From contig JAFSWZ010000025.1 of NCBI GenBank assembly GCA_017450125.1, positions 62,001 to 126,000 of the forward strand: a stretch of 64,000 bases of DNA. Direction: 5' to 3'. Under the pieces are notes generated by a model. The model was not told where the DNA came from and ran no database searches. It worked only from the letters and a program-made list of their open reading frames with translations. The DNA is from Synergistaceae bacterium. GTDB lineage: Bacteria; Synergistota; Synergistia; Synergistales; Aminobacteriaceae. Positions 1 to 21,459 of this stretch are shown one piece after another (within the stretch, counting starts at the first letter, position 1; the number at the start of each line of letters is the position of its first letter). Both the position numbers and the translations under genes were made by a program.

Positions 1-122
1 CGCGGGGCACTAAGCTCGGAGGCCGGACATCATCAGCAAAGCAGGTAGGCTACACTGAGTACGAAACATTGATGAACTGCATAGAAGCCGCCGTTGAAGA
101 CGGAATGCAGCAGATGTATTAA
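1..122 (+). CDS. C-terminal end of a truncated upstream gene
   Basis: A reading frame open from the window edge (first full codon at base 3) ends with TAA at 120-122. About 39 residues are visible, ending in the stretch EDGMQQMY. The tail resembles the C-terminal helix of CsgG-like outer-membrane proteins, and the next gene is CsgG-like, so it may be a CsgG-family paralogue. That is inference from a short fragment. It lies 15 bases before the next gene and is probably in the same operon. Confidence 0.4.
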   Translation, partial: RGTKLGGRTSSAKQVGYTEYETLMNCIEAAVEDGMQQMY

Positions 123-137
123 GGAGGAGGAATAATC

Positions 138-746
138 ATGCGTAAACTTTTGGTGGTACTGCTGGTGCTCGGACTGGCAGGGAGTGCGGCCGCAAAGCCG
201 AGACTGGCGATTCGCGCCTTCGAGGACAAGACAGAGGACGGCAACGCTCCGGCAGGTGCAGTGATGGACATGATGGTATCGGAGCTGAACAAGACGGGGA
301 TTTTCTCTCTCATGGAACGCGAGAGGCTCGACTATGTTGCGGAAGAGATAAAGCTCGGACAGTCCGGCCTTATGGATCCGTCAACAGCCCCGAAGGTCGG
401 CAAGATTAAGGGTGCACAGTACTCAATGACCGGCGCAATCACGGTGTACTACTACAGCAAGAAGGGGAGCGGCTTTGTAGTGCCGATACTGGGCTTCGCA
501 ACGCAGGCCAAAACCGCCTACGTTATGCTTGACCTCCGCGTAATCGACAACTCAACCGGCGACATCGTCTACGCCGCATCCCAGCTCGGCGAGTCAAAGC
601 AGGTCGCGAAAGGTGCGGCGGCGGCGTACAAGGGCTTCTTCATCGGCGGCTACAACAGGACGACAGGAGGCATTCTCGCAAGCGCAACCCGCAATGCCGT
701 CATGAAGCATGTTGACGCGATAAAAGCCGTTTACTGGGAGGAGTAG
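138..746 (+). CDS. CsgG-like exported protein
   Basis: This 202-residue protein starts with a clear signal peptide (hydrophobic residues 4-19, Ala-rich cleavage region) after a strong ribosome binding site (aaggaggagg). The mature part has the CsgG/HfaB pattern: an opening strand AIRAFEDKT, a helix with SELNKTGIFSLMERERLDYV, a GAQYSMTGAIT strand and a closing strand describing variation over time (DLRVIDNSTGDIVYA). CsgG forms the curli export pore, but many homologues are envelope proteins of unknown role. No lipobox Cys is seen, unlike Escherichia CsgG. It ends 10 bases before the EssC-like gene, so it may share a transcript with the secretion locus; a functional link is not shown. Confidence 0.7.
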   Translation: MRKLLVVLLVLGLAGSAAAKPRLAIRAFEDKTEDGNAPAGAVMDMMVSELNKTGIFSLMERERLDYVAEEIKLGQSGLMDPSTAPKVGKIKGAQYSMTGAITVYYYSKKGSGFVVPILGFATQAKTAYVMLDLRVIDNSTGDIVYAASQLGESKQVAKGAAAAYKGFFIGGYNRTTGGILASATRNAVMKHVDAIKAVYWEE

Positions 747-756
747 TAGTTAGGCT

Positions 757-3700
757 ATGGATTACCTGGTAGCTATATATACCGGCAGCAAGATTCATAC
801 CCGCAAGATTGAGCAGGGCAGTACAGTAACGGTCGGCAACTCACGTAGCGACACCATCATCATCGACAAGTACGCGCTCGGCCCGGAATATCTCGTGATG
901 GCCTGCGATCCGGGAGGGGTGCACATACTCTCGAAGCAGCCCATGAAGTTCGGGAACGAGGAGACCACAAACCGCGTGCTGTCCGCAGGAGAGACTATCT
1001 CCGTTACTGAAAAGATAACTCTTGCTGTCTACCCTGCCAGATGCCCTGTCAGCTTCTCATTGTCCCTCGACAGGTTCAGCGAGCTGCATCTGGGGCGGTC
1101 GTACAACAGCAACGACATAGCTCTTCAGGACAGCGGAGTATCATCGCGCCACGCCGTACTGAAGAAGCATGAAGGCCGCTGGTTCATCACGGACCTTAAG
1201 AGCCACAACGGTACTTTTGTCGGCGGGAATATAGCCATGCCGCACGAGGAAGTTCCGGCGGAGGAAGCAACAATCTTCATCAGCGGCTACACGTTCTACA
1301 TTCAGGGCGACATGATACACTTCCAGAACATTCCCGGCGGGATCGACTTTGCACCGGCGCAGATAAACGCTCTCGTATACACTTCCGAGAAGCAGAAGCC
1401 TTACCCGTTCTTCCAGCGGTCGCCGCGAATACGGGGCAGTGCGGACAAGGCAGAGTTCGAGCTGGCAAGTCCTCCAGCCGTCAGCCAGAAACCCACCGTC
1501 TCGTGGTTCATGCTGCTTCTGCAGCCCGTGATGATGGTAGCAATCATGGGCTTCATAGCCGTCATGATGAAGAATTACAGTATGCTGATGTACTCCGTGC
1601 CCATGTCCTTCATGTCGATTATCATGACGATCCTGAACAACAAGAACAACATGAAGAAGTGGCAGAAGAACAACGGCACTGCTGTGGAGAAGTATTCCGA
1701 GTACCTCGAGCAGACTGAGAGCGAAATCATCTCTTCTGAGGGAGCGTATATCTCTGCACTGTCCGGCGCAAGTCCCGGCTCTCTGGAATGCCTGAGCATT
1801 GCCGAGAGCGTGAGCCGCCGCCTCTGGGAACGTACCGTGAGGGACAGCGACTTCCTCTCTGTGAGGCTGGGCATAGGTTCGGTGCCGTCTAACGTTCACA
1901 TCAAGGTTCCGATGTCTCAGATGTCCGTAGAGGATAACCCGTTCATCGCGCAGGCCGAAGCCATAAGGGACAGACACACGACGCTTGCCGGTGTTCCTGT
2001 GTGCCACTCGCTGAAGGATTACCCTATAACAGGACTCGCCGGCAGAAGGGACGACGTGATACGCGCGGCATGGCGGATAATCATGGACATTGCCACTCAC
2101 CATGCGTACACCGACGTTAAGTTCATCTGCGTTTACCCTAAAGAAGAACGCGAAAAATGGGAGTGGATGCGCTGGCTTCCTCATATCTGGGACTCCAAGC
2201 AGAAGAAGCGTTACCTTGCCTGCGACAAAGACGAAGCAAGGATTATGCTCCGCGAGGCCGCAGGTATGCTCAGGACAAGAAGCAAGGAAGCCGGAGAAAG
2301 GATGGACAAGGACGCTCCCCCGCCTACTCCGTTCTACGTGCTGATACTCGCTGACAGAATGCTTACTGAAGCTAGCGGCGAACAGTTCTTCCCCGCAAGC
2401 TCGGCTGTAGGGTTCGCGGCTCTCTACGTTTACGGCGATATAGGCTCTCTTCCCGGAGAATGCCAGAGCGTGATCACCTGCGGGCCGGAAGGCAGGATTC
2501 AGACCACAGAGCCGGGCAAAGGCACGACAACAACATCCTTCACTGCCGACAACGTGAGCCTGAGCATAATGGATGCATTCGCGCGCGCACTTGCCCCCGT
2601 CAAGCTGATGCAGTCAGGCGGAGGAAGCAGAATGCCGACAAGCATAACGTTCATGCAGGGCTTCAAGGCGAACACTGTTGCTGATCTCGACATCATAGGA
2701 CGCTGGGGGAAGAACCATTCAGAATCAAGCCTCGCGGCAGAGATAGGGATACAGGAGAACGGCGACGTGTTCAAGTTCGACGTTTTCGAGAAAGCTATGG
2801 GGCCTCACGGGATAGCCGCCGGTACTTCTGGAAGCGGAAAGTCCGAGATGCTCACGACGTGGCTGCTCTCTCTCGCGCTGAACTTTTCGCCCAAAGATGT
2901 CAACATCGCGCTAATAGAGTTCAAGGGTAACGACCTCTCGAACATACTTCACGACCTGCCTCACATTGCCGGAATAGTCAGCAACCTTAATGACCCGTCG
3001 ACCATCATACGAGGCCTGAAGTCCCTCAAGGGCGAGAAGGACAGGAGGATGCGCCTCTTCGAGCAGTCGGACTTCCTCTCGTCGAAATCTATCTTTGCGT
3101 ATCAGAAGTACCAGAAAAGCCACCCTGAAGCAGGCCTTGAACCTCTGCCGTACCTGATAATAGTCATCGATGAGTTCGCTGAGCTTGTTACGCAGTACCC
3201 AGAGTTCAACGACGAGATAGTCTCTATCGCGCGCGTCGGCCGAAGCGTCGGAATGTACATGACGCTGACCATGCAGAGCCCGCAGGGAGTCGTGAAAGGG
3301 CAGGTGTCGTCGAACACGAAGTTCCGCGTGTGCCTGAGAACCGCCAACGCAGGCGAGAGCAAGGAGATTCTGGGCACAGCAGACGCGTTCAACATCTCCG
3401 CTCCCGGGCGCGCCTACATCAAGGTGGGCAACGGAGAGGTGTACGAGCAGGTTCAGACGTTCTACGCCAAAGCTCCTTACAGACCCGGCGGAGGTCAGAA
3501 GACGGGTATCGGCGAGATACGGCTTGTTGCTCTGGACGGCACGAAGACGAAGCCGGAAATCTACAGCAAGACCGTCAAGAAAGGCAAAGACGAGCAGAGC
3601 GAAGGCAACGTTATCGTACGGGAGATCATCAGCACGGCAGAAGCCCAGCACATGGGGCGCGCACGCCCCGTCTGGACCGATCCTCTGCCGCTGATGCTTC

Positions 3701-5256
3701 CACTCGACGGCCTCATAAAGGGGCACGAAGCGTTTGACCGCGAGGCCAAGACCTGGCATGATGCGAACAAAGGACTTGCTGTAACCGTAGGTCTGGTTGA
3801 TGCTCCTGAAGAGCAGAGACAGTACCCGTTTGTTCTGGACTTCATGAAGAACGGACATCAGGTGCTTTACGGTGCGCCGTCGACGGGAAAGACCAGCTTC
3901 CTGCAGACGGTGCTGACGAGCGCGGCGATGTGCTACACTCCTGATCAGGTGAACTTCGTCATCATCGACTACGGCAGCTTCATCCTGAAAGCCTTTGAGC
4001 CCCTGCCTCACACGATAATAGCCGCAGACCCCACAGACGAGGACAAGGTCAAGAAGACCGCCGAGTTCATGAGGAGGGAGCTTGCGACGAGAAGGAAGCT
4101 GTTTTCTGCTGAGGGTGTCGCCAGCCTCGAGAGTTACCGCGAAGCCATAGGGAAGCCCGTGCCCGCAATAATCGTCATCGTCGACAACATAGCTTCCGTC
4201 AGTGGACAGAGCAGTGAGCTCATGGACGTTCTCAACCTTACGGCGAGAGACGGCGGAGGTCTCGGCGTGTACCTGATGATCACGACCGGAAGCGGCGGCG
4301 GCTTCATGTACAAGATAACGCAGTACGTGAAGAGCAACCACACCCTACAGCTCACCGAAAGGACGGAGTACAGGCCTCTTATCGGCGGTGAAGGCAGAAG
4401 CGAACCCGGAAAGTATCCCGGGCGAGGTTTCACCAAAGGCGCGCTCGAGTACCAGACTGCGCTTTGCGTTGAGGGCGAGACAGAAACCGAGAGAAGCCGC
4501 AAGCTCAAGGCACTGTGCGCGGACATGTCAGCAGCCTGGACGGGCAAACGTGCTTCACTCGCTGAGGCAGAGGCGGCAAGGACTGCACCTGTCGGGGCTG
4601 AAGAACTCTCGTTCAGCACGGACGGCGTTCAGATAGGCATGACGAAGGACACCCGCGAGCCCGTAGAGTTCGTCTACGAAGCAATGCACGGCTGCATAAT
4701 CTCCGGGACGTTCGGCGGCGGCAAGAGCAGCATCCTCGCGATGATAGCCAAAGCCCTCAACGATGACCCGAAGACGAGACTGTACGTCTACGAGGAAGAT
4801 ACGTTCATCGAGAAGTTCTGCCCCAACGCTAAGGTTATCCACAAACCTGAAGAGATGGACGAGATTATCGCCGGGCTTGACGCGGAATACTCCGAGAGAA
4901 GCGAGGACAGCGAAGACAGGATAGTTATCTGCCTCGACAACTTCTACAACCTCTATCAGGACATAACGCAGGAGAGCGCGGATATTCTGGAGGCCATTGC
5001 ACGCGGCGGGCCGGAAAGGAAGATGTTCATCTACGCGGTGTGCACGTCAAAGGCACTCTCTACGCTGGGGATGAGCGATGTGCCTCTGTACTCGGAGCTC
5101 ATGAAGTACGGCAACGCTGTCGTAACCGGCGGAACTCTCAAGGAGTACAGGGAGTTCAACGCCTTCCACAGAGAGGATGACATATCCTTCGGTTCTCATG
5201 AAGGAGCACTGATTCACGGCGGGCGCGTTGTGAATCTTATGTTCGGGATGCCATAA
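757..5256 (+). CDS. essC: Type VII secretion EssC/YukBA-like FtsK/SpoIIIE ATPase with FHA domain
   Basis: The 1499-residue protein has the layout of EssC, the motor of Firmicutes-type ESX secretion. An N-terminal FHA pair comes first. The second FHA is canonical: G113-R114, S129-S130-R131-H132 and N151-G152-T153, the residues that bind phosphothreonine. Two hydrophobic segments at about 250-295 anchor it in the inner membrane. Three P-loop domains follow: Walker A at 689-697 (GTSGSGKS) with Walker B D805-E806, Walker A at 1039-1047 (GAPSTGKT) with D1143-N1144, and Walker A at 1317-1325 (GTFGGGKS) with D1394-N1395. Only the first has the Asp-Glu pair expected for hydrolysis; the others may mainly bind substrate or nucleotide, as proposed for EssC. 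Length matches the family. A YukD-like gene and WXG100 genes follow. Confidence 0.92.
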   Translation: MDYLVAIYTGSKIHTRKIEQGSTVTVGNSRSDTIIIDKYALGPEYLVMACDPGGVHILSKQPMKFGNEETTNRVLSAGETISVTEKITLAVYPARCPVSFSLSLDRFSELHLGRSYNSNDIALQDSGVSSRHAVLKKHEGRWFITDLKSHNGTFVGGNIAMPHEEVPAEEATIFISGYTFYIQGDMIHFQNIPGGIDFAPAQINALVYTSEKQKPYPFFQRSPRIRGSADKAEFELASPPAVSQKPTVSWFMLLLQPVMMVAIMGFIAVMMKNYSMLMYSVPMSFMSIIMTILNNKNNMKKWQKNNGTAVEKYSEYLEQTESEIISSEGAYISALSGASPGSLECLSIAESVSRRLWERTVRDSDFLSVRLGIGSVPSNVHIKVPMSQMSVEDNPFIAQAEAIRDRHTTLAGVPVCHSLKDYPITGLAGRRDDVIRAAWRIIMDIATHHAYTDVKFICVYPKEEREKWEWMRWLPHIWDSKQKKRYLACDKDEARIMLREAAGMLRTRSKEAGERMDKDAPPPTPFYVLILADRMLTEASGEQFFPASSAVGFAALYVYGDIGSLPGECQSVITCGPEGRIQTTEPGKGTTTTSFTADNVSLSIMDAFARALAPVKLMQSGGGSRMPTSITFMQGFKANTVADLDIIGRWGKNHSESSLAAEIGIQENGDVFKFDVFEKAMGPHGIAAGTSGSGKSEMLTTWLLSLALNFSPKDVNIALIEFKGNDLSNILHDLPHIAGIVSNLNDPSTIIRGLKSLKGEKDRRMRLFEQSDFLSSKSIFAYQKYQKSHPEAGLEPLPYLIIVIDEFAELVTQYPEFNDEIVSIARVGRSVGMYMTLTMQSPQGVVKGQVSSNTKFRVCLRTANAGESKEILGTADAFNISAPGRAYIKVGNGEVYEQVQTFYAKAPYRPGGGQKTGIGEIRLVALDGTKTKPEIYSKTVKKGKDEQSEGNVIVREIISTAEAQHMGRARPVWTDPLPLMLPLDGLIKGHEAFDREAKTWHDANKGLAVTVGLVDAPEEQRQYPFVLDFMKNGHQVLYGAPSTGKTSFLQTVLTSAAMCYTPDQVNFVIIDYGSFILKAFEPLPHTIIAADPTDEDKVKKTAEFMRRELATRRKLFSAEGVASLESYREAIGKPVPAIIVIVDNIASVSGQSSELMDVLNLTARDGGGLGVYLMITTGSGGGFMYKITQYVKSNHTLQLTERTEYRPLIGGEGRSEPGKYPGRGFTKGALEYQTALCVEGETETERSRKLKALCADMSAAWTGKRASLAEAEAARTAPVGAEELSFSTDGVQIGMTKDTREPVEFVYEAMHGCIISGTFGGGKSSILAMIAKALNDDPKTRLYVYEEDTFIEKFCPNAKVIHKPEEMDEIIAGLDAEYSERSEDSEDRIVICLDNFYNLYQDITQESADILEAIARGGPERKMFIYAVCTSKALSTLGMSDVPLYSELMKYGNAVVTGGTLKEYREFNAFHREDDISFGSHEGALIHGGRVVNLMFGMP

Positions 5257-5268
5257 AGGAGGCTGGCG

Positions 5269-5526
5269 ATGAACGGTCCTGATACAGTAACAGCTACAGT
5301 AACGAACGACGAGCGCACTTTCCATGATGACATGGAGCTGCCATCAGGTATGCCTGTCTCCGAGCTCAGCCGACAGATTATGCTGATTCTCAAGGACATT
5401 CACGAGGATATATTCTCCGGCTGGACAGCCTGCCGCCTCGAGTACAGGGGACGCATACTGAACGCAGATGATACCTTGCTGAACGTCGGTGCGTTCGACG
5501 GAAGCATAATAGTTGTCCGTCAGTGA
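5269..5526 (+). CDS. YukD/EsaB-like ubiquitin-fold protein
   Basis: An 85-residue protein starting 12 bases after the EssC-like gene behind a strong ribosome binding site (aaaggagg). The pattern matches YukD/EsaB: a starting beta strand (TVTATVTND), a DMELPSGMPVSEL turn into a helix, then GRILNADDTLLNVGAFDGSIIVVRQ, which reads like the last strands of a ubiquitin fold. YukD-type proteins are small cytoplasmic parts of Firmicutes type VII secretion that affect secretion or its expression and are not known to be conjugated. There is no C-terminal Gly-Gly. Its position directly after the motor gene supports the call. Confidence 0.8.
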   Translation: MNGPDTVTATVTNDERTFHDDMELPSGMPVSELSRQIMLILKDIHEDIFSGWTACRLEYRGRILNADDTLLNVGAFDGSIIVVRQ

Positions 5527-5676
5527 TGGCGCGTTTATCCGCAGTTATTGCGATGAAACACTACGTAATTCTATCGTGAGGATATGTAGCCCGAAAGGGT
5601 TGCGGCGGATATAATAATGCCATCGTAAATGAAGCGGAACACAGCGGAATAAAGACGAAGAAGGAGGTGAAACTAG
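5527..5676 (+). promoter_or_regulatory. Intergenic leader before the first WXG100 gene, with a -10-like box
   Basis: A 150-base gap inside an otherwise tight cluster. It contains TATAAT at 5610-5615 without a convincing -35 box, a short CCCGAAAGGG hairpin at 5590-5599 and a strong ribosome binding site (aaggaggtg) just before 5677. It may be an internal promoter or processing site that raises WXG100 expression above that of the motor gene. That is inference. Confidence 0.35.
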
Positions 5677-5979
5677 ATGCCGAAGATCAGAATATCACAC
5701 GAGACGCTCAGGAGCACAGCCAAGAGCATCGCCCAGTGCCAGACAGACCAGCAGGATATCATCTCGAAGATCTCTCAGATGGTGGAGACGCTGAGGACTG
5801 GATGGGAAGGCGAAGCCCGCGTAGGTTTTGAGGCAGCTTTCGAAGCAGCGAAGCCTATGTACCAGCAGTTTGCTCCCGACCTTCAGAAGTTCGCAGACTT
5901 CCTCAACATGTACTCAGGCAAGATGGAGGATGTCGACGTAGCAGGCCGTGAAAGGTTCAAGGACGCTATCCAGCAGTAA
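5677..5979 (+). CDS. WXG100-family type VII secretion substrate
   Basis: A 100-residue protein of exactly WXG100 length. Two helices flank a hairpin with W-E-G in TGWEGEARVGFEAAF, the diagnostic WXG turn. The start follows a very strong ribosome binding site (aaggaggtg). Proteins of this family (EsxA/ESAT-6) form helical-hairpin dimers and are secreted by EssC-type motors. The usual Y-x-x-x-D/E tail motif is not obvious here: the tail has YSGKMED, one residue out of register. It is the first of six small or WXG-like genes in this locus. Confidence 0.9.
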   Translation: MPKIRISHETLRSTAKSIAQCQTDQQDIISKISQMVETLRTGWEGEARVGFEAAFEAAKPMYQQFAPDLQKFADFLNMYSGKMEDVDVAGRERFKDAIQQ

Positions 5980-6044
5980 AGTATTAGCTCTTGAGCGGGC
6001 CGTCAGTCAGAATCATGGCAAGCAGATAGGAGGAGGTGAAAAAT

Positions 6045-6347
6045 ATGGCAGATACAATACTCTTGACCCCCGAAGAACTCGAGGACAACGCCGCGCAGCT
6101 TAATCAGATGGCAGATAAGAACGACGAGGTAGTAACTACGCTCGATGGTGTGGTGAACGGTCTGTTATCCGGCTGGGAAGGCGATGCACAGGCTGCATTC
6201 GTTGAGAGCTTCACGAAGAAGAAGGATGTCTTCAAGCGTTTGAGCGAGGACATGAGGAATTTCGCAAACAGGATTAAGACCTTCGCGTCTCACATGAGGG
6301 ACGAGGAGCAGCAGAAGACCGCACAGGCTCGTGAACTTGGTGCTTAG
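6045..6347 (+). CDS. WXG100-family type VII secretion substrate, second copy
   Basis: A 100-residue protein with a WXG turn in LSGWEGDAQAAFVESF and flanking helices. The ATG at 6045 is preferred: the in-frame GTG at 6036 lies inside the ribosome binding site (aggaggtg). It is a divergent paralogue of the gene before it, 65 bases upstream, and the two may pair as a heterodimer in the way EsxA and EsxB do. The polar C-terminus (DEEQQKTAQARELGA) carries no clear Y-x-x-x-D/E motif. Assignment to the family is firm; pairing is inference. Confidence 0.88.
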   Translation: MADTILLTPEELEDNAAQLNQMADKNDEVVTTLDGVVNGLLSGWEGDAQAAFVESFTKKKDVFKRLSEDMRNFANRIKTFASHMRDEEQQKTAQARELGA

Positions 6348-6431
6348 TCAGTCTCTGATTAAAGGAAGAATAAAGCGGCAGGGGGCAGGAATTGTTCCCT
6401 GCTTTTCGTCAATTTCAGGGGAGAAGATTGT

Positions 6432-6863
6432 ATGCCGGACAAGAAATTTCTGCTTATTACCAAGAAGGAGCTGTTCTATTCAGCCGTGATGCTGAGAATC
6501 CGCAAGCTGGTCAACGTAGTCTACGATTTCCCTGCGGACAGCCTCAAGTTCGAAGCCGAGCTCCGGGACGCGCGCAAGACACTGCGGCGAAAAAACCTTC
6601 TTGAAGATTCAGCACGGGACGGAGTGAACATCAGTTTTTCCCTGAGCGTATGCGTATCCTTCTGCGCAAACCCGGACAGCTGCGAGGTTATAGACTCTTA
6701 CGGATACAGCGCGACAGTCTATCAAGCCTCAAAAATGTATATGCTCATGGAGAACCGCGGGGACGGTGAACTTCTTGCGGCGGCGTGGTTCAAGGACAAA
6801 GCCAGCCTTGACGGTTACGTAGAAAGCCAGATACAGAAAAGGAGAGGAGCAGTGCTCAGATGA
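6432..6863 (+). CDS. Unknown protein of the secretion locus
   Basis: A 143-residue protein without signal peptide or membrane segment, so probably cytoplasmic. It opens with MPDKKFLLITKKELFYSAVM and looks like a mixed alpha/beta domain. A run of hydrophobic strands near the middle (NISFSLSVCVSFCANP) and a Tyr-rich stretch (DSYGYSATVYQASKMYM) stand out. No family was recognised. It sits between WXG100 genes, and its last four bases overlap the next start, which points to translational coupling and a role with the small secreted proteins, for example as chaperone or regulator. That role is inference only. Confidence 0.6.
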   Translation: MPDKKFLLITKKELFYSAVMLRIRKLVNVVYDFPADSLKFEAELRDARKTLRRKNLLEDSARDGVNISFSLSVCVSFCANPDSCEVIDSYGYSATVYQASKMYMLMENRGDGELLAAAWFKDKASLDGYVESQIQKRRGAVLR

Positions 6864-7174
6864 GCGGACTTAGAGACGCAAGCGGCACAATAGTAATCAA
6901 CGAGGCGGAAGCAGAAGAAGACATCCGCCGTGTACAGCAGGCAAAGGCCAGCCTTGAGGAAGCCCGGCAGTACCTTGACCCTGCTTCCATCGACAGCGAA
7001 AGAATGCGCGGCCTCACACGCGATGCCCTGGAACAGCAGTTCGAGAAGATGACCAAAGATCTCAACAGCTGGCAGGAAGCGTGCGACGAGACAGTCAGCT
7101 ACATAAGACGCGTCGTCGCCGAATACCAGCGCATAGACCGCGAGTATGCCGCAAAAGCAAGGGAGATGAAGTGA
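6860..7174 (+). CDS. Small helical type VII-associated protein with YxxxD motif
   Basis: A 104-residue, highly charged, almost entirely helical protein, as in WXG100-like or LXG-partner proteins. It has no true WXG turn (W-Q-E occurs in LNSWQEACDE). Near the C-terminus residues 89-93 read YQRID, matching the Y-x-x-x-D/E export signal of type VII substrates or their partners. Its start overlaps the gene before it by four bases, and the next gene begins two bases after its stop. The likely role is a secreted or substrate-partner protein; a sequence family could not be named. Confidence 0.65.
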   Translation: MSGLRDASGTIVINEAEAEEDIRRVQQAKASLEEARQYLDPASIDSERMRGLTRDALEQQFEKMTKDLNSWQEACDETVSYIRRVVAEYQRIDREYAAKAREMK

Positions 7175-7176
7175 TT

Positions 7177-7476
7177 ATGCCGACGACAGTGATAAACGTC
7201 AGCGCAGTAGAAGAGAGCACGAAGCGGGCACTGGATTACGTGTCAGAACAGCAGGATATGCTGGGTGCAATAGACCGCGTGGTCAACACGATGGAAGATG
7301 CTTGGGACAGCGATGCACAAAGAGCCTACGCAGAGAGTTTCCGGCGGTCAAGAGATCGTATAGAGCGTTTCAACGAGTCAGTAATCAGCTCCCTGAACAA
7401 TATGCGCGGGTTTGTGGGGGACTGCGTGAGTGCGGACGAACTTACGGCACGCGAGATATTAAGCGTAATCTGGTAA
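7177..7476 (+). CDS. WXG100-like protein with degenerate turn
   Basis: A 99-residue helical hairpin protein. The central turn reads DAWDSDAQRAYAESF, where the WXG Gly is replaced by Ser, but the surrounding pattern (W-x-x-D-A-x-x-x-Y/F) is preserved, and the spacing from the N-terminus fits the family. ATG 7177 is chosen: it lies two bases after the previous stop and has a ribosome binding site (aagggag), while a longer frame from 7081 would run through the gene before. It is probably a WXG100 paralogue exported or paired within this locus. Confidence 0.78.
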   Translation: MPTTVINVSAVEESTKRALDYVSEQQDMLGAIDRVVNTMEDAWDSDAQRAYAESFRRSRDRIERFNESVISSLNNMRGFVGDCVSADELTAREILSVIW

Positions 7477-7498
7477 GCGGAAAGGAGAGCGGCAGACA

Positions 7499-7810
7499 AT
7501 GGCAAAAATTTTAGCAGTAACAACAGAAATGGAGGCGCGCGCCTCTGACATAGGAACAAAAGCAGACTCGATTCTTGACATACAGAACGCAGTAACAAAT
7601 ATATTCCAGAGTTTGGGACGGGACTTCAGCGGGCGCATTCCGTCGCTGATGACCGAGAAGATGATAGCAATGGAGGACATATATCAGGGTATAAACGGCA
7701 CGCTCAACGGATACGCGGCTTTCCTGTCCGACGCGGCCAAGAACTACGACTGGAGCGACAGAGAAGGCGCGAGATGGGCAAGGTCTCTTAACTTGGGAGG
7801 GGGTAACTGA
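7499..7810 (+). CDS. Small WXG100-like helical protein
   Basis: A 103-residue protein of WXG100 length with two predicted helical parts either side of a turn near SLGRDFSGRIPSLMTEKM. The Trp of the motif is missing, so it is a divergent relative at best. A C-terminal YDWSDREGARW segment follows the second helix. A ribosome binding site (aaaggagag) precedes it, and it ends two bases before the next gene. It may be the dimer partner of the Gly-rich protein that follows. That is inferred from adjacency only. Confidence 0.65.
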   Translation: MAKILAVTTEMEARASDIGTKADSILDIQNAVTNIFQSLGRDFSGRIPSLMTEKMIAMEDIYQGINGTLNGYAAFLSDAAKNYDWSDREGARWARSLNLGGGN

Positions 7811-7812
7811 TC

Positions 7813-9030
7813 ATGCCGTCAAACGTGTTAATCTTTGATGCTGATTACGTCTCCGAGCTCACGGCAAGGATGAACAGTGCCTGCGAGCTCATGGCGAGTG
7901 CAGTATCCAGCCTGAAGAGCGCGAGCAACCACGAGGGCTGGAAGTGCAAGGAACGCACCGAGATACTGGGCTTCTTCGACCAGCTTAACGACAAACTTGG
8001 CCGCCTTGACGGAGGGGTGAACGAGACCACGAGGATACTCAGCGGGAGCGTGAGCCGTTTTGCCTCCCTCGAACAGCAGTACGAATCGCAAGCTGAAGGG
8101 CTCTCTGAGGAAATAACCGGCGGCTTCGGGTTCAGGGCATCCGTGCGCGGAGGCGGAAACAGCACAGAACCTTCCGGGCAGACACCGGGAAGTTCTGCGT
8201 CCGGCGGAACAGGCTCTGGCGGAAGCGAAGGCACCGGCGGGGCAGGCGGGCAAGGCGGGCACGGCGGGCACGGCGGGCACGGAGGCGGCGGACATGTCGC
8301 AGGAGCAGTCGCAGGACTTGGCCGCAACATAATAGGCGGAAACAGGCCGGGCGACAATCACAATAATTCTGAGACACCTTCAGGAACAGGAGGAGCAGGA
8401 GGAGCAATGAACGTAAATCTTCCGGTAACGTATATTCCCGACAACCCGGGAGCGGCGGCACGGGGCGTTAAGGACACCAAAGCCGTAGCAGTATTCGCGG
8501 TCAGCACAGCCGCAGGGACAATCACGGGAGCTCTGTCGGAAGGAGCTCAGGCAGCGTCAGTACCGGCACTCGTCGAGGCCTACAACACAGCACGTGATGT
8601 CTTCGAGAGTTCCGGCGCAATAATGGCCAGTCCGTCCCAGCCCCACACTGCTGAGCGTCTCGCTATGGCCGCCGGTCTGGTGTCGCTCGCGGGGAATCCG
8701 GGAGCTCAGGCTTCGGCGCATTCGCAGGGCTTCAGTGCTTCGTCATCAGGGAGCGGGAGCTTCGCCGCCAACGCAGGCAGCCTCATGGGTATGCTTCAGG
8801 GCAACTCTGAGGCTTCGGAGCTTCAGGGCATTCTGGGAGTACTGACGGGGGCTGGCGGTGTTTCTGGTGCTGCATTTGCCGGAAGTTCTAGAGGCGAAAA
8901 CAATACATTCTTTGATATGATACTCGATGCACTCAAGAAAGCCCTTGCGGGAGAAGGCACAGGAACGTCGTCATCGTCGTCTGCCTCTAACCCGGTAGCG
9001 GAATTTCTGGGAAGTTACGTGATGGACTAG
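7813..9030 (+). CDS. Large WXG-like protein with Gly-rich linker, candidate secreted effector or structural protein
   Basis: A 405-residue protein. Residues 1-95 are a helical hairpin resembling a WXG100 domain with an altered turn (HEGWKCKERTEI). Residues about 105-190 are extremely rich in Gly, Ser and His, including repeated GGHGGHGG units. Residues about 215-405 are Ala/Gly/Ser-rich with short hydrophobic helices. The layout (WXG-like head plus long variable tail) is that of LXG or PPE-like type VII substrates, but no known toxin domain is visible. It has no signal peptide. No separate immunity gene follows: the next gene is the phosphatase, which argues against a simple antibacterial toxin. 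Confidence 0.6.
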   Translation: MPSNVLIFDADYVSELTARMNSACELMASAVSSLKSASNHEGWKCKERTEILGFFDQLNDKLGRLDGGVNETTRILSGSVSRFASLEQQYESQAEGLSEEITGGFGFRASVRGGGNSTEPSGQTPGSSASGGTGSGGSEGTGGAGGQGGHGGHGGHGGGGHVAGAVAGLGRNIIGGNRPGDNHNNSETPSGTGGAGGAMNVNLPVTYIPDNPGAAARGVKDTKAVAVFAVSTAAGTITGALSEGAQAASVPALVEAYNTARDVFESSGAIMASPSQPHTAERLAMAAGLVSLAGNPGAQASAHSQGFSASSSGSGSFAANAGSLMGMLQGNSEASELQGILGVLTGAGGVSGAAFAGSSRGENNTFFDMILDALKKALAGEGTGTSSSSSASNPVAEFLGSYVMD

Positions 9031-9040
9031 GTGATAATCA

Positions 9041-9841
9041 ATGCCGAAGGTGAAATTTGCAGTACGTTCCGACGTGGGGCGCGTAAGAACCAACAACGAG
9101 GATAATTTATACTGCAACGGAATAGTCATGACGGTCTCCGACAGAGAGAGGCCGTTTTTTCTTGCAGGAATAACGGACACACCCGCAATCTTCGCTGTCT
9201 TTGACGGAATGGGCGGCGAGGACTGCGGGGAACTTGCCTCCCTCACTGCCGCAGAGTCGCTTCAGAAGCACGCAGGCAAGGTACTCGGCAACATTCTTGA
9301 CGCTGAATGGGAAGTAGTCAACTTCGTCAAGGAAGCCAACGCTGAGCTTCTGGAGATTATGCGTTCTCAGGGTCTGAGGATGGGTACTACGCTGGTTATG
9401 GCAGTTGTCGGCGAGGCATCCTTCACGATGTACAGTCTGGGTGATTCTCAGGGCTTCAAGATGCTCGGAGACCGTCTCGTGCGCGTAACGGACGACCACA
9501 CCATAGCCGCAAGCAAAGTCAGGATGGGTCTTATGACTCCTGCTCAGGCGGCCAAGAGCAGGGAGAACCACATTCTCACGCGCTGGCTTGGAGATCCCGA
9601 CGAGTTCGGAGCAGCACCGGATGTCAGCCAAGCCTTTGCGTTCAGTGATGCACAGGGAGGGCTGATGTGCTCTGACGGACTGACTGACATGCTGGACTTC
9701 AAGGACATCGCCGCAATCATGAAGGCTAACCCCGAGCCTTCGGACGCAGTGAATGCCCTCGTTGATGCGGCACTCGGGCGCGGAGGCCGGGACAACGTTA
9801 CGTGCCTTGTGTTCAGAGTAGAGGAGGTTGAGCAGGCATGA
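9041..9841 (+). CDS. PP2C-family Ser/Thr protein phosphatase
   Basis: A 266-residue cytoplasmic phosphatase with the full set of metal-binding motifs: VGRVRTNNEDN near the N-terminus, FAVFDGMGG, GTTLVMAV, YSLGDSQGFKM, CSDGLTDML and GRDNVTCLV. The length is typical of stand-alone bacterial PP2C enzymes (PrpC/Stp). It overlaps the kinase gene that follows by four bases, so the two are translationally coupled. It probably reverses phosphorylation by that kinase; with the FHA domain on the secretion motor a shared target is plausible. The activity call is strong, the target is inference. Confidence 0.93.
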   Translation: MPKVKFAVRSDVGRVRTNNEDNLYCNGIVMTVSDRERPFFLAGITDTPAIFAVFDGMGGEDCGELASLTAAESLQKHAGKVLGNILDAEWEVVNFVKEANAELLEIMRSQGLRMGTTLVMAVVGEASFTMYSLGDSQGFKMLGDRLVRVTDDHTIAASKVRMGLMTPAQAAKSRENHILTRWLGDPDEFGAAPDVSQAFAFSDAQGGLMCSDGLTDMLDFKDIAAIMKANPEPSDAVNALVDAALGRGGRDNVTCLVFRVEEVEQA

Positions 9842-11766
9842 CGGACATAAAGCAGTACGAGCCTCTGTGGGGTTCATGGTACGTCGAGGGCAATCCGCTG
9901 GGTGAGGGATCGTTCGGCCAAGTGTGGAAGGTACGGCGCGAGGAGTTCGACCGCAAGTACTACGCCGCCGTGAAAATAATCTCCCTGCCTCAGAGCCGGG
10001 AAGACCTCAACCGCATACGCAGCGAGCTCAATGACGACGAGCCAAGCGTACGGAGCTACTTCAAGGGTATGGTTGACGACATAATCCAGGAAATAGACCT
10101 CATGAGCATGTTCAGGGGGAACTCTAACGTCGTCTCTATCGAGGATCACAAGGTGCTGCCAAAAGAAGGCGGAGAAGGCTGGGAGTCCATAGGCTGGGAC
10201 ATTCTCATACGCATGGAACTTCTGGAGACGTTGTCGGCTCACACAGCGTCCAAGCCGCTAACCCTTGAAGAGGTTATGAGGCTGGGTATAGACATCTCGC
10301 ACGCTCTGGAGCTCTGCGCCGTCAAGAACGTTATCCACAGGGATATCAAGCCGGACAATATCTTTGTGTCGGAGTACGGAGACTACAAGCTGGGCGATTT
10401 CGGTGTAGCCCGGCACATTGAGCGCATGAACGCCGAGATGTCAGAGAAGGGAACGCCCACGTACATGGCACCTGAAATCTTCAACCACCAGCCTTACGGG
10501 CCTTCTGTGGATCTGTACTCTCTGGGCATAGTCATGTACCGTTACCTGAACAACAACCGTGCTCCGTTCATGCCGCCTTATCCCGAACAGCCGACCCCTG
10601 ATGACCGCGAGAATGCACTGATGCGCAGGATGAGGGGGGAGCAGATTCCCGACATACCCGGCATTCCCGCAGAGCTCAATGATTTTGTGCTCAAGGCGTG
10701 TGCGTTCCGGCCTGACGACAGGTTCAGGAGTGCTGAGGAGTTCAGGAAGGAGCTCGAGAGGATAGCGGGCGTGAAGTCTAAGGCTTCCGTGTACGAGATT
10801 CCGAGAGCGCAGGGAGGTGCGGACACTTCTCCGCGCGCACGCAGGGCTGACGAAGAAGAGGAGCATACTGTCGGGCAGTTCGTTCCACGTTACGAGGAGA
10901 CCATCATTGCCCCCAAGAACGAGAAGCCCGAAGTTCCCGCACGAATCATGAACTTCATCTCAATACCCGGTGCTGTGTGTTCGGGGCTGCTTACCCTTCT
11001 GTGTATCTTCAGCGGACGAACCGGCGACATTGTGTTCTCCATGCCGCTCTACGCTATGCTTGCTGCCCTCTGCGTCCTGACCTTCAAGCTCTCGGCGTTG
11101 AACCTTGTAGCGATTGTCTGGCTCATCGTATGGCTGGCCTTTACGGCTCTGATGAACTTCTCGGCGTTCGATTATCCTCTGCTGGCAATGACGGTGGGGA
11201 TATTGTGTGCTGAGGCTCTGCGTTCGCCCAACCCGAAGTACAAGCGCGTCCTTAGTGTTGCTCTTGCGATGTGCGCAGTTGTTACGTCAGTGCTGTCTTA
11301 CAGGGCTTCGGGAGCTTCGACCTCAGAGAACTTCAAGGCACTCATTGCGGCATCTTACGGAATACCGGCCATACTGTCGTTCGGTGCTGTAGCCGTAATG
11401 CTGCCCCATCGCGAGGACGGGAAAGTCATCCCTGTTCTTGCGGCTCTGCAGTTTGCACCGCTGATGATGTTCCTGATGATGATAGCAGCAGCATTTGCCG
11501 GGAAATTCTCTTACGTGCTGTTCAACATGGCTAATGCCTGCTTGGTGGGGTTCTCGCCGGAAAGATTCTCGTGGTGGAGGTACGCGCGGTTTCTCGGGCT
11601 AGTCATTCAGGTTGTGGCGGCACTGTGCGTTGTGCTGACGGCGTGCGCAAGGATGATGCCTAGTGATTTTCTGGCGATGATGAACAGCAAGGGGAAATCT
11701 GCCGGGATGTTTGCGGCCGGGCTTGCTGTCGTAATTATGGGCTTATTGGCTGTGTTGCTGATTTAG
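9838..11766 (+). CDS. Ser/Thr protein kinase with polytopic C-terminal membrane domain
   Basis: A 642-residue membrane kinase. The catalytic domain (about 15-310) is complete: Gly loop from residue 22 (GEGSFGQV), K46, HRDIKPDN with D169, D187-F-G and APE at 211-213. A charged linker (about 320-370) leads to a C-terminal half of roughly eight hydrophobic segments (about 372-640). No extracellular PASTA repeats are present, unlike PrkC/PknB. Firmicutes EssB has an inactive kinase fold plus one membrane helix; this protein is active-looking and polytopic, and it may stand in for a membrane component of the secretion machine. Coupled by overlap to the phosphatase. Confidence 0.92.
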   Translation: MTDIKQYEPLWGSWYVEGNPLGEGSFGQVWKVRREEFDRKYYAAVKIISLPQSREDLNRIRSELNDDEPSVRSYFKGMVDDIIQEIDLMSMFRGNSNVVSIEDHKVLPKEGGEGWESIGWDILIRMELLETLSAHTASKPLTLEEVMRLGIDISHALELCAVKNVIHRDIKPDNIFVSEYGDYKLGDFGVARHIERMNAEMSEKGTPTYMAPEIFNHQPYGPSVDLYSLGIVMYRYLNNNRAPFMPPYPEQPTPDDRENALMRRMRGEQIPDIPGIPAELNDFVLKACAFRPDDRFRSAEEFRKELERIAGVKSKASVYEIPRAQGGADTSPRARRADEEEEHTVGQFVPRYEETIIAPKNEKPEVPARIMNFISIPGAVCSGLLTLLCIFSGRTGDIVFSMPLYAMLAALCVLTFKLSALNLVAIVWLIVWLAFTALMNFSAFDYPLLAMTVGILCAEALRSPNPKYKRVLSVALAMCAVVTSVLSYRASGASTSENFKALIAASYGIPAILSFGAVAVMLPHREDGKVIPVLAALQFAPLMMFLMMIAAAFAGKFSYVLFNMANACLVGFSPERFSWWRYARFLGLVIQVVAALCVVLTACARMMPSDFLAMMNSKGKSAGMFAAGLAVVIMGLLAVLLI

Positions 11767-11782
11767 GCGGAGTGCATCAGCT

Positions 11783-12925
11783 ATGAGCAAAAAGCTAGTG
11801 TACTTATCGAACTGTCCCAGTCATTATTCACTGTCGCTCTCTGAGGCCTTCACCAAAATCTACGGCGACAGCTTCAAGTTCATCACGACCGTCCGGCTCA
11901 AAGAAGGCGAGGGTCTGCCGTCATACTTCGGGGACACGGCGGAACTTCCGTTTGTCCTGCGAGCCTACGACAGCCCGGAGGCCGGAGAGGAAGCCCGCAG
12001 GATGGTGATTGATGCGGACTGCGTGATAATTGGCGGCCTGCCGGTAAGCGATGTCGCCGAGAGACTGCGTGCGGGGAAATTGACTTTCATGCAGAGCGAA
12101 CGTTTCTTCAAGGGGCCGCTGTGGAAGGATGCAGTGAGGTTCGCGAAGTACTGTCTCTACAGCGGCGGGAGGTCTCAGGCACGGGATAGGCGCGCGAAGT
12201 TCTACCTCCTGTGCGTGTCTGCTTACGCGGCACGGGACTACAGCACCTGCGGACTGTTCAGGGGCAAGTCGTACAGGTGGGGCTACTTCCCCGAGCTGAA
12301 GCACTGGGACACTCTTCCCGCAAAGGACAGCGGAAGCATCATCTGGACGGGAAGGCTAATCTCGTGGAAGCACCCTGATTTGGCGGTGAAGCTCGCGGAG
12401 AGGCTCAAGGCTCAGGGCAAAACCTTCCGGCTGAAGATTATCGGTTCTGGCGAAATGCAGGCAGAACTCTCGCGCATGGTCGACGCACTGAACCTTCACG
12501 ACTGCGTAGAACTTCCGGGAGCTCTTCCCGTCGGGAAGGTTCGCACGGAGATGGAGAGGGCGGAGATCTCGCTGTTCACGTCGGACAGAGGCGAAGGCTG
12601 GGGAGTTGTTCTCAACGAAGCAATGAACTCCGGCTGTGCAGTTCTCGCGGACAACCGAGCAGGCTCTACCCCATACCTAGTCAGGGACGGGCACAACGGA
12701 CTGACCTTCAAGGGGCTCGATGACCTCACGCAGAAAGTCTCTGCACTGCTCGATGCTCCCGAGAGATGCGCTGAACTTGGCCGGAACGCCTACAAGACTA
12801 TTGCGGAGGTGTGGAGTCCTGATGTCGCGGCAAGGAGGTTCGTCGAGCTTGCGGAGGCACTGAGGACAAAAGATTCTGTGAGCTTGTGGGAGGACGGGCC
12901 GGGAAGCGTTGCGCCGGTGATATAA
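11783..12925 (+). CDS. GT4-type glycosyltransferase
   Basis: A 380-residue GT-B enzyme. The C-terminal Rossmann half carries the family pattern: IIWTGRLISWKHPDLA, then LKIIGSGEMQAEL, and the donor-binding EGWGVVLNEAMNSGCAVLA, with E-x7-E preserved. The N-terminal half is divergent (acceptor side). Such enzymes transfer a sugar from a nucleotide-sugar to a lipid- or polymer-linked acceptor at the cytoplasmic membrane; the substrate cannot be read. It starts 16 bases after the kinase gene with a weak ribosome binding site, so it may be read through from the secretion operon without belonging to it. Confidence 0.82.
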   Translation: MSKKLVYLSNCPSHYSLSLSEAFTKIYGDSFKFITTVRLKEGEGLPSYFGDTAELPFVLRAYDSPEAGEEARRMVIDADCVIIGGLPVSDVAERLRAGKLTFMQSERFFKGPLWKDAVRFAKYCLYSGGRSQARDRRAKFYLLCVSAYAARDYSTCGLFRGKSYRWGYFPELKHWDTLPAKDSGSIIWTGRLISWKHPDLAVKLAERLKAQGKTFRLKIIGSGEMQAELSRMVDALNLHDCVELPGALPVGKVRTEMERAEISLFTSDRGEGWGVVLNEAMNSGCAVLADNRAGSTPYLVRDGHNGLTFKGLDDLTQKVSALLDAPERCAELGRNAYKTIAEVWSPDVAARRFVELAEALRTKDSVSLWEDGPGSVAPVI

Positions 12926-12926
12926 T
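12918..12926 (+). promoter_or_regulatory. Extended -10 promoter element
   Basis: TGATATAAT fits the extended -10 consensus (TGnTATAAT) and overlaps the stop of the glycosyltransferase gene, 34 bases before the dehydrogenase start. No clear -35 is present, as is tolerated for this promoter class. A separate transcript for the dehydrogenase is inferred. Confidence 0.45.
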
Positions 12927-12959
12927 TACACAATCCCCAACGAAAAGAGGTACTCACTC

Positions 12960-13856
12960 ATGAAGATAGGATTTATCGGTCTCGGCATAATGGGTCGCCC
13001 GATGGCCAAGAACCTCCTCAAGGCCGGGCACGAACTCAGAGTATTCGACATGAACAAAGCCGCTGTTGACGACGTCGTAGCCTTCGGTCAGGGCAAAGCC
13101 ACAGCCGCCGCAAACGCAGTCGATGCCGCGAAGGGTGCAGAGCTCGTCCTTACGATGCTCCCCAACTCCCCGCACGTCAAAAGCGTAATGCTCGAGGACG
13201 ACAAAGTCGCTGACCACATGGAGCAGGGCGCGGCATTCATCGACATGTCCTCAATCAACCCCATCGCCAGCCGCGAAATCGCCGACGCTCTCGCAAAGAA
13301 GGGAATCCCTATGCTCGACGCTCCCGTCTCCGGCGGTGAACCTAAAGCTATTGACGGAACGCTGAGCTTCATGGTCGGCGGCAAGAAGGAAGTCTTCGCG
13401 AAGTTCGAGCCTGTGCTTAAGGCTATGGGCTCAAGCGTTGTGCTCTGCGGAGACATCGGCGCAGGGAACGTTACGAAGCTGTGCAACCAGATCGTCGTTG
13501 CGGTGAACATCGCGGCAGTCAGTGAAGCACTCATGCTCGGCAAGAAGGCCGGCGTTGACCCCGAAGCAATCTATCAGGCGATACGCGGAGGGCTCGCAGG
13601 CTCAACGGTAATGGACGCGAAAGCTCCCATGATCATGAACCGCAACTTCAAGCCCGGCTTCAAGATTGACCTTCACATCAAGGATCTCACCAATGTTATG
13701 GACGCGGCCAAGAGCGTTGACAGCCCCATTCCTCTGACGGTGCAGGTGTTCGAGATGATGAAGATTCTTCACGGCGACGGCAAGGGACAGTGCGACCACA
13801 GCGCGCTTGCCCTCGTGTACGAGAAACTTGCTAACACGGAGATTACGCGCGGCTAG
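12960..13856 (+). CDS. garR: 3-hydroxyacid dehydrogenase, tartronate semialdehyde reductase-like
   Basis: A 298-residue beta-hydroxyacid dehydrogenase. An N-terminal Rossmann motif GFIGLGIMGRPMAKNL binds the dinucleotide, followed by the substrate-binding DAPVSGGEPKAIDGTLSFMVGG and the catalytic-Lys segment GAGNVTKLCNQIVV. The length and the motif spellings match GarR/GlxR enzymes, which reduce tartronate semialdehyde to glycerate, but 3-hydroxyisobutyrate dehydrogenases share these motifs, so the substrate is uncertain. The start has a ribosome binding site (aaagagg). No glyoxylate or glucarate genes lie nearby. Confidence 0.8.
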   Translation: MKIGFIGLGIMGRPMAKNLLKAGHELRVFDMNKAAVDDVVAFGQGKATAAANAVDAAKGAELVLTMLPNSPHVKSVMLEDDKVADHMEQGAAFIDMSSINPIASREIADALAKKGIPMLDAPVSGGEPKAIDGTLSFMVGGKKEVFAKFEPVLKAMGSSVVLCGDIGAGNVTKLCNQIVVAVNIAAVSEALMLGKKAGVDPEAIYQAIRGGLAGSTVMDAKAPMIMNRNFKPGFKIDLHIKDLTNVMDAAKSVDSPIPLTVQVFEMMKILHGDGKGQCDHSALALVYEKLANTEITRG

Positions 13857-20676: not shown

Positions 20677-21459
20677 TTTTATGGAGACATCAGAAAAATA
20701 TCTTCTGAGGAACTGCCGGACTTTGAGTTACTGCTCGCCGGTTTTCCATGCCAGGCATTTTCGATAATAGGCAGGCGCGAAGGTTTTGATGATGCTGTTC
20801 ACGGAAAACTGTTCTTCGAGATTCTGAGAATACTCCGCGAAAGAAAACCTGTCGCATTCATGCTAGAGAACGTAAAGAACCTTACAGCTCACGACAGCGG
20901 CAGGACATACAGAATAATCATGAACTTCCTCGAACACCTGGGGTACTGCGTCTATTCGCGGGTTCTTAACGCAATGGACTTCGGGCTTCCCCAGAAACGC
21001 GAAAGAATCATTATTGTCGGCTTCCGTGAAAATGTGCTGTTCGCTTTTCCTGAGCCTGTACCTGACTCAGAATGTCTGACACTCGCAGATATTCTTGAGC
21101 CGTCTCCCCCGGCACGGTATTATGTCAGCGACAAGATACGGGCATCACGGCTGGCAAGACTGAAGTATAAAGACTTTCCCAAGCCGTATATTTCGCATGA
21201 AAATGTAGCAGGAAGCGTAACGCCTCATTTATGGTCAGCAACACTCAGAGCAGGAGCTTCGGCAAATTACATGCTTGTTAATGACGAACGCAGGCCTACA
21301 GAACGCGAGATGCTGCGGCTTCAAGGTTTCCCCGACAGTTTCAGAATAGTAGTTCCATACGGGAAGCTGAGACAGCAGTGCGGAAATTCCGTAGCCGTCC
21401 CGGTAATCAAAGCAGTAGCTCAGGAAATGTTAAGGTCATTAAGGCAGGTACAGGCATGA
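20677..21459 (+). pseudogene. 5'-truncated DNA cytosine-5 methyltransferase
   Basis: An open frame after TGA 20674-20676 reads GDIRKISSEELPDFELLLAG and then the catalytic motif IV GFPCQAFS, motif VI MLENVKNL, motif VIII FGLPQKRERIIIVGF, motif IX TEREMLRLQGFPDSF and motif X CGNSVAVPVIKA. The SAM-binding motif I (F-x-G-x-G) and about the first 60 residues are missing, and no start codon lies before the catalytic Cys; the first ATG is at 20860, beyond it. It is therefore a remnant of a Dcm/M.HhaI-type enzyme, inactive unless a partner supplies motif I. The break lies next to the argG promoter region. Confidence 0.82.

Follow-up and report, generated by a model that had tools for sequence, protein, structure and literature searches.

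How does a type VII secretion motor without EssA, EssB or EsaA find its partners in the membrane, and what does an intact protein kinase do in a cluster of this kind? The question is raised by genes at the left end of a 64,000-nucleotide stretch (the window) of contig JAFSWZ010000025.1 from a Synergistaceae bacterium (GCA_017450125.1), one of which encodes a Ser/Thr kinase of the Hanks type that continues into a polytopic membrane domain. Most descriptions of the type VII secretion system (T7SS) come from Gram-positive bacteria and mycobacteria. The host is a member of Synergistota with a genome of 2.16 Mb (97% complete), whose close relatives include Synergistaceae metagenome-assembled genomes (MAGs) from ruminants and a Fretibacterium; Synergistetes have been listed as (atypical) diderms (PMC8871954), and an outer-membrane efflux protein (PF02321) is encoded in the window. 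By its genes the cluster is of type VII, with an EssC/EccC-type ATPase (TIGR03928, 903.5 bits against an NCBIfam cut-off of 778.4) and WXG100 proteins encoded alongside (Table 1). We propose, with a probability of roughly 0.6, that the membrane part of the kinase is a scaffold that docks onto the EssC motor in a phosphorylation-dependent manner, under the control of the kinase and the neighboring PP2C-type phosphatase.

An initial annotation of this DNA, made from the sequence alone, had recognized no EssA, EssB or EsaA in the cluster and had placed the kinase in the position of EssB. The absence was borne out over the whole genome, as searches for EssB (PF10140), EssA (PF10661) and EsaA (TIGR03929), each with a positive Bacillus subtilis control, found no match, and the test for a T7SSb system was thus negative for all three proteins. 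EssA and EsaA were searched in the window's genome and EssB also in 188 Synergistota genomes, none of which gave an EssB match above the curated cut-off (one sub-threshold match, 19 bits). The kinase itself did not match PF10140, the EssB/YukC family, in Pfam. Among the cluster proteins scanned for membrane segments, which were all but the two clear WXG100 proteins, only EssC (two segments) and the kinase carried any, apart from the signal peptide of a CsgG-like protein, and in this set the kinase is indeed the only membrane protein besides the motor, as had been suggested.

The open reading frame (ORF) of the kinase is intact, with exactly the limits given in Table 1, and its first 4 bases are shared with the PP2C gene that precedes it. 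In an alignment of 19 relatives, G22xG24xxG27, K46, E85, H167-R-D169-x-K-P-x-N174, D187-F-G (187-189) and APE were invariant or nearly so, and the kinase is apparently catalytically active. It is the sole strong Hanks kinase of the genome (128 bits, versus 48 and 23 for the next two), and its best relative in the PDB is PknB. The kinase domain shares 45-49% identity over ~305 residues with kinases of clostridial T7SS loci (L066, L067, L069, L072, L082 and L107; the clostridial profile was made without the Synergistaceae fragment L052) and 39% with a T7SS-locus kinase of a Coriobacteriaceae. PADLOC matches to mad6, PD-T4-6 and mad8 were set aside, as they reflect generic kinase and FtsK-type domains. 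A linker of ~54 residues separates the kinase domain from the hydrophobic C-terminus, for which hydropathy indicates 8 membrane segments and the AlphaFold model ~9 helices, in agreement with the about eight segments of the initial annotation.

Since Foldseek searches with the whole kinase were swamped by generic kinases, the membrane domain was modelled separately (21 sequences), giving a mean predicted local distance difference test score (pLDDT) of 88.2 and a predicted template modelling score (pTM) of 0.87. Against the PDB, Foldseek with this model returned nothing below E 0.19, and a profile search of the PDB sequences found no match (best E 1.4). When the whole protein was compared with Pfam and NCBIfam, all matches lay in the kinase part, so that the C-terminal domain did not turn out to belong to an unrelated sensor family, an outcome the annotation had allowed for. 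The domain is a candidate new inner-membrane component, with a confidently modelled fold that has no PDB match. Its sequence diverges fast, with ~25% identity to distant relatives. In two genomes of another family (G161 and G155; loci L042 and L043) it occurs as a separate protein that carries an N-terminal cysteine-rich, zinc-ribbon-like segment and lacks a kinase domain, which argues for a job of the membrane domain beyond carrying a kinase. The kinase-less protein of L043 is followed by separate genes for a distinct kinase and for a PP2C.

The membrane domain accompanies EssC closely. Across the 188 Synergistota genomes EssC was found in 23 and the membrane domain in 22, all 22 of them among the 23 with EssC and none among the 165 without it; the single EssC-bearing genome that lacks the domain is 74% complete. 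Gene order is largely fixed, and is kept across two families, as EssC, YukD, WXG1, WXG2, a 143-aa protein, WXG3-5, variable genes, PP2C and kinase. Outside Synergistota the membrane domain was not found in 422 genomes (32 chosen for related EssC and 391 Clostridia, one of them shared), a negative whose nearest positive control is the search of the Synergistota phylum, made with a single sequence. Because it was seen in Synergistota only, the polytopic domain looks lineage-specific. In a quick tree with Shimodaira-Hasegawa-like approximate likelihood ratio test (SH-aLRT) support, the EssC proteins of Synergistota grouped together in a single supported clade, next to a clade of clostridial EssC to which several of the loci with the related kinases belong. 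One EssC nested in the Synergistota clade comes from L063, labelled Peptococcaceae and counted among the 32 genomes above; it is either a misbinned contig or a transfer.

How might such a domain be connected to the motor? The linker is variable except for T344, invariant in 19/19 relatives within the pattern T-x-x-[V/I]-F, and copies of the motif are also present in a further relative (G144) and in the two kinase-less proteins. The pattern T..[VIL][FWL] was matched by 18 of 19 linkers against 0.5 expected after shuffling, and T-x-[GSA]-[VILM]-[FW] by 5 of 7 linkers of T7SS kinases from outside Synergistota, with as many as three copies per linker (10 matches where 0.09 were expected), ratios that are descriptive because the motif was formulated after the sequences had been seen. 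On the side of the motor, G113, R114, S115, S129, H132, N151 and G152 of EssC FHA2 (residues 112-162) were invariant in 10/10 aligned Synergistota EssC, and the residues of the phosphothreonine pocket are lost in an EssC encoded beside EssB (L139). FHA2 recruits EssB in Staphylococcus aureus and is required for secretion (PMC9436818); in B. subtilis the contact of FHA domain and pseudokinase is apparently independent of phosphorylation, and the pocket is degenerate (PMC9600267). The simplest reading of these sequences is that the surface with which FHA2 docks EssB would be used here through phosphothreonine. A threonine motif is likewise paired with an FHA domain in GarA/OdhI, where, unlike here, both lie within one soluble protein. 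We take the residues that follow the ETTS motif of GarA/OdhI to resemble those of the linker motif. Phosphorylation in vivo has been described for the ETTS motif (PMC12321487) and for Thr14/15 of OdhI (PMC2784874).

In the arrangement that we favor, the N-terminal kinase, facing the cytoplasm, would phosphorylate itself at the juxtamembrane Thr344, with further target sites possible, and FHA2 of EssC would bind phosphorylated Thr344. This binding would couple the nine-helix domain to the motor and license assembly or secretion, and the PP2C encoded just upstream would reverse the phosphorylation. As the sole polytopic partner of the motor in a conserved cluster, the membrane domain is probably the motor's inner-membrane scaffold or vestibule, and would take the place that EssB and EsaA hold in T7SSb; a channel role is putative. 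The proposal draws on the intact catalytic residues, the invariant threonine motif, the intact FHA2 pocket, the inheritance together with EssC, the absence of EssA, EssB and EsaA and the confident, unmatched membrane fold, all of which were computed; the evidence is stronger for docking than for a role as scaffold or channel. It makes the locus a concrete test of phosphorylation-controlled T7SS assembly, with one threonine, one FHA domain and one phosphatase.

Several points weigh against phospho-dependent docking of a scaffold. We infer all three of its elements, namely phosphorylation of T344, binding by FHA2 and the scaffold role. The window's own copy of the motif, TVGQF, has Gln at +3 and is the sole such copy in the set; with Gln instead of Val/Ile its affinity for an FHA domain may be lower. 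The Fisher P for co-occurrence of EssC and the membrane domain (about 1e-27) is descriptive, because related genomes were treated as independent, and kinship among the genomes inflates the statistics. MAG contigs are fragmented, and several EssC genes of relatives are in pieces. The wiring also varies, since of the two genomes with the kinase-less version one has a separate kinase-phosphatase pair that belongs to another subfamily (L043) and in the other (L042) none was seen on the contig.

The polytopic domain could instead be purely a sensor, its task limited to switching the kinase in response to a signal from the envelope or the membrane, with the channel made of EssC and other or housekeeping proteins; such control would resemble that of type VI secretion, which is switched by threonine phosphorylation. 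Kinase, PP2C and FHA domain together form a typical post-translational switch, the clostridial T7SS kinases of the same family look sensor-like in pairing one helix with extracellular parts of various kinds (an OmpA domain in one case), and the fast divergence of the membrane domain is also in keeping with this role. A sensor would nevertheless be hard to square with the two genomes that retain the membrane domain and its threonine motif without a fused kinase, with the lack of a match to any sensor family or PDB fold, and with a conserved core that contains no other polytopic protein; we consider it possible, if on balance unlikely. That the kinase is instead unrelated to secretion, parked beside the operon and regulating another pathway, might be argued from the versatility of kinases and from a glycosyltransferase gene closely downstream in some genomes, but the co-occurrence with EssC (22/23 versus 0/165), the 4-base overlap with PP2C and the order conserved across two families leave this the least credible of the explanations.

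The initial annotation went further and suggested that the kinase might be close to the ancestor of EssB, the pseudokinase having arisen by later degeneration of such an active polytopic form. EssB/YukC of T7SSb is indeed membrane-anchored, has a cytoplasmic kinase-like fold (PMC9600267) and is the partner of EssC FHA2, the position that we propose for the kinase here. Unlike our kinase, it is a pseudokinase with one helix and a phospho-independent contact, and no sequence relation is detectable: hhalign gave a probability of 0.2-0.3% for three EssB sequences against profiles of this kinase and of the clostridial T7SS kinases. Moreover, the closest relatives of our kinase, the clostridial ones, resemble EssB better in their single-helix topology, and the searches recovered the polytopic domain from Synergistota alone, a phylum with a single EssC clade next to the clostridial one. 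The suggestion was thus not supported, and we judge it highly improbable. EssB may still be a very diverged relative of the kinase; a tree of EssB ancestry was dropped, as EssB was too divergent and showed no hhalign similarity. Phospho-dependent docking onto EssC remains the reading that we prefer.

The idea of a kinase in place of EssB is not new, having been published for Gram-positive T7SS variants (Garrett, Higginson and Palmer, 2024; PMC11217815). In T7SSc, the position held by EssB in T7SSb is taken by TscD, an active-looking membrane kinase described with a conserved active site, one or more membrane helices and an envelope portion, and the kinases TsdD, TseD and TsjD (the last with a TPR domain) have been reported for T7SSd, e and j; PPM phosphatases occur in T7SSc, e and j, and T7SSd, e and j have an FHA-bearing ATPase in which the phosphothreonine motif is conserved (PMC11217815). 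The locus shares with these systems a membrane-anchored kinase beside a PPM phosphatase and a T7SS ATPase, in a cluster without EssB. It differs from them in belonging to Synergistota rather than to Gram-positive bacteria and in its nine-helix domain without a PDB match, and it is without TseI, TseJ (DUF6382) or TscE (vWA), defining parts of T7SSe and T7SSc. In the test for T7SSe, the nearest of the published subtypes that combine a kinase, a PPM phosphatase and FHA, neither DUF6382 nor a large envelope protein (TseI) was found in the window's cluster; in that for T7SSc, EssC carried FHA domains, unlike the T7SSc ATPase, and no vWA (TscE) was found among the cluster proteins. An Ig/PKD-like gene of 670 aa flanks EssC in one relative only.

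The clostridial T7SS kinases mostly have a PP2C neighbor, and most carry T-x-[GS]-[VILM]-F motifs in their linkers. Their C-termini, unlike that of our kinase, do not match the polytopic domain, and where complete consist of one membrane helix and varied extracellular domains. In one of them (L067:20926-24069, + strand) the extracellular C-terminal part ends in an OmpA-family domain. These sister loci were not assigned to T7SSe, because no DUF6382 was found among the L066 and L067 genes scanned. What appears to be new is the nine-helix membrane part, along with its setting in gut bacteria that have two membranes, and full-text searches of open-licence papers returned no report of type VII secretion or WXG100 together with Synergistota or Synergistetes. 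EssC-type ATPases were also seen in Chloroflexi (Thermomicrobiales, Anaerolineae and Ktedonobacterales; L093, L095, L112, L114, L115, L117 and L123), some adjoined by WXG100-like genes, a phylum outside the two described in PMC11217815.

How substrates might cross a second membrane is suggested by genes that the initial annotation overlooked, as the cluster starts left of the window edge with exported envelope proteins. Directly before EssC, genes with operon-like spacing (L132:6102-8123, left of the edge, and window 138-746) encode a FlgT_N-like protein (473 aa, with signal peptide; a weak match under the cut-off), the exported protein SP192, of 192 aa, and the CsgG-like protein. Homologues of the FlgT-like protein and SP192 lie upstream of EssC in 12/12 Synergistota loci with enough upstream sequence, and CsgG-like genes within 2.5 kb upstream in 10/13 loci, often as a pair ending 0-7 bases before EssC. 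The signal peptide of the CsgG-like protein (CsgG1) was assigned by eye and hydropathy, and its profile matches CsgG crystal structures (E 3e-5); a repeat-protein match from a single-sequence PDB search was rejected as spurious. No CsgG match was found in T7SS loci from outside Synergistota. The gene belongs to the family of the curli export channel, and the FlgT_N-like protein further upstream recalls FlgT-type envelope proteins; unlike in the curli system, no curli genes were seen nearby, and the outer-membrane pore is here only putative. In one genome, a 1157-aa CsgG-ankyrin-repeat fusion (L046:13322-16795, + strand) directly follows the kinase.

From this arrangement we infer that the exported module is a candidate for the path by which a T7SS in a diderm would pass the periplasm and the outer membrane. 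Taken together with the kinase, the locus could encode a T7SS adapted to two membranes, with a kinase-fused nine-helix vestibule switched by threonine phosphorylation and with the FlgT-like, SP192 and CsgG-like proteins carrying substrates across the periplasm and the outer membrane; we regard this combined scheme as tentative and, on balance, rather unlikely.

Table 1. Features of the cluster and of related loci (window coordinates unless a locus is named)
Feature	Location	Strand	Evidence
CsgG-family exported protein, signal peptide, no lipobox found	138..746	+	PF03783 E 3.8e-30
EssC-type motor ATPase: FHA domains, 2 membrane helices, FtsK/SpoIIIE domains	757..5256	+	TIGR03928
EssC FHA2 domain, intact phosphothreonine-binding residues	1090..1242	+	FHA E 2.4e-14
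YukD/EsaB-like ubiquitin-fold protein	5269..5526	+	PF08817 E 1.1e-4, 23.4 bits, under cut-off 27
WXG100 protein 1	5677..5979	+	PF06013 E 2.5e-14, above cut-off
WXG100 protein 2	6045..6347	+	PF06013 E 6.4e-12, above cut-off
143-aa conserved protein, family not recognized	6432..6863	+	synteny in nearly all relatives
WXG100-like protein 3	6860..7174	+	weak PF06013 E 0.005; synteny
WXG100-like protein 4	7171..7476	+	PF06013 E 3e-5, TIGR03930 E 3e-7; both under cut-off
WXG100-like protein 5	7499..7810	+	weak PF06013 E 0.014; TIGR03930 E 4.6e-4
Candidate substrate, Gly-rich middle, slot variable between genomes	7813..9030	+	no family match (Pfam, NCBIfam)
PP2C-type phosphatase	9041..9841	+	PP2C E 1.3e-9; NF033484 E 1.1e-43, under its cut-off
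T7SS-associated Ser/Thr kinase (Hanks type) with C-terminal polytopic membrane domain, 642 aa	9838..11766	+	ORF, Pkinase, 19-relative alignment
Kinase domain, residues 15-298	9880..10731	+	Pfam Pkinase E 5.5e-37
Catalytic HRDxKPxN, residues 167-174	10336-10359	+	alignment of 19 relatives
Linker motif T344-V-G-Q-F348, predicted phosphothreonine docking site for FHA domain	10867..10881	+	conservation
Polytopic membrane domain, residues 364-642, 8-9 helices	10927..11763	+	hydropathy, AlphaFold model
Kinase-less polytopic protein	L042:2-1147	-	Thr motif present
Kinase-less polytopic protein	L043:6621-7796	-	Thr motif present

Substrates of the system are probably among the genes of the variable slot, some of which have lysozyme or CHAP domains. 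Two such candidates, L037:5844-6947 (- strand) and L038:776-1558 (+ strand), carry a phage-tail-lysozyme (PF18013) or CHAP domain behind a WXG/helical N-terminus. The 143-aa protein had no match in Pfam, NCBIfam or the PDB, and is sometimes duplicated together with WXG3 and WXG4 (L040, L043). No RNA families were found in positions 1-13000 of the window and no tRNA in the whole of it, and scans for promoters and terminators gave no more matches than in shuffles. Further along the window, at 20860-21459, lies a probable remnant of a C5-cytosine DNA methyltransferase gene: its product matches the C-terminal portion of the family (profile positions 107-323 of 324), and the frame upstream is broken by stops.

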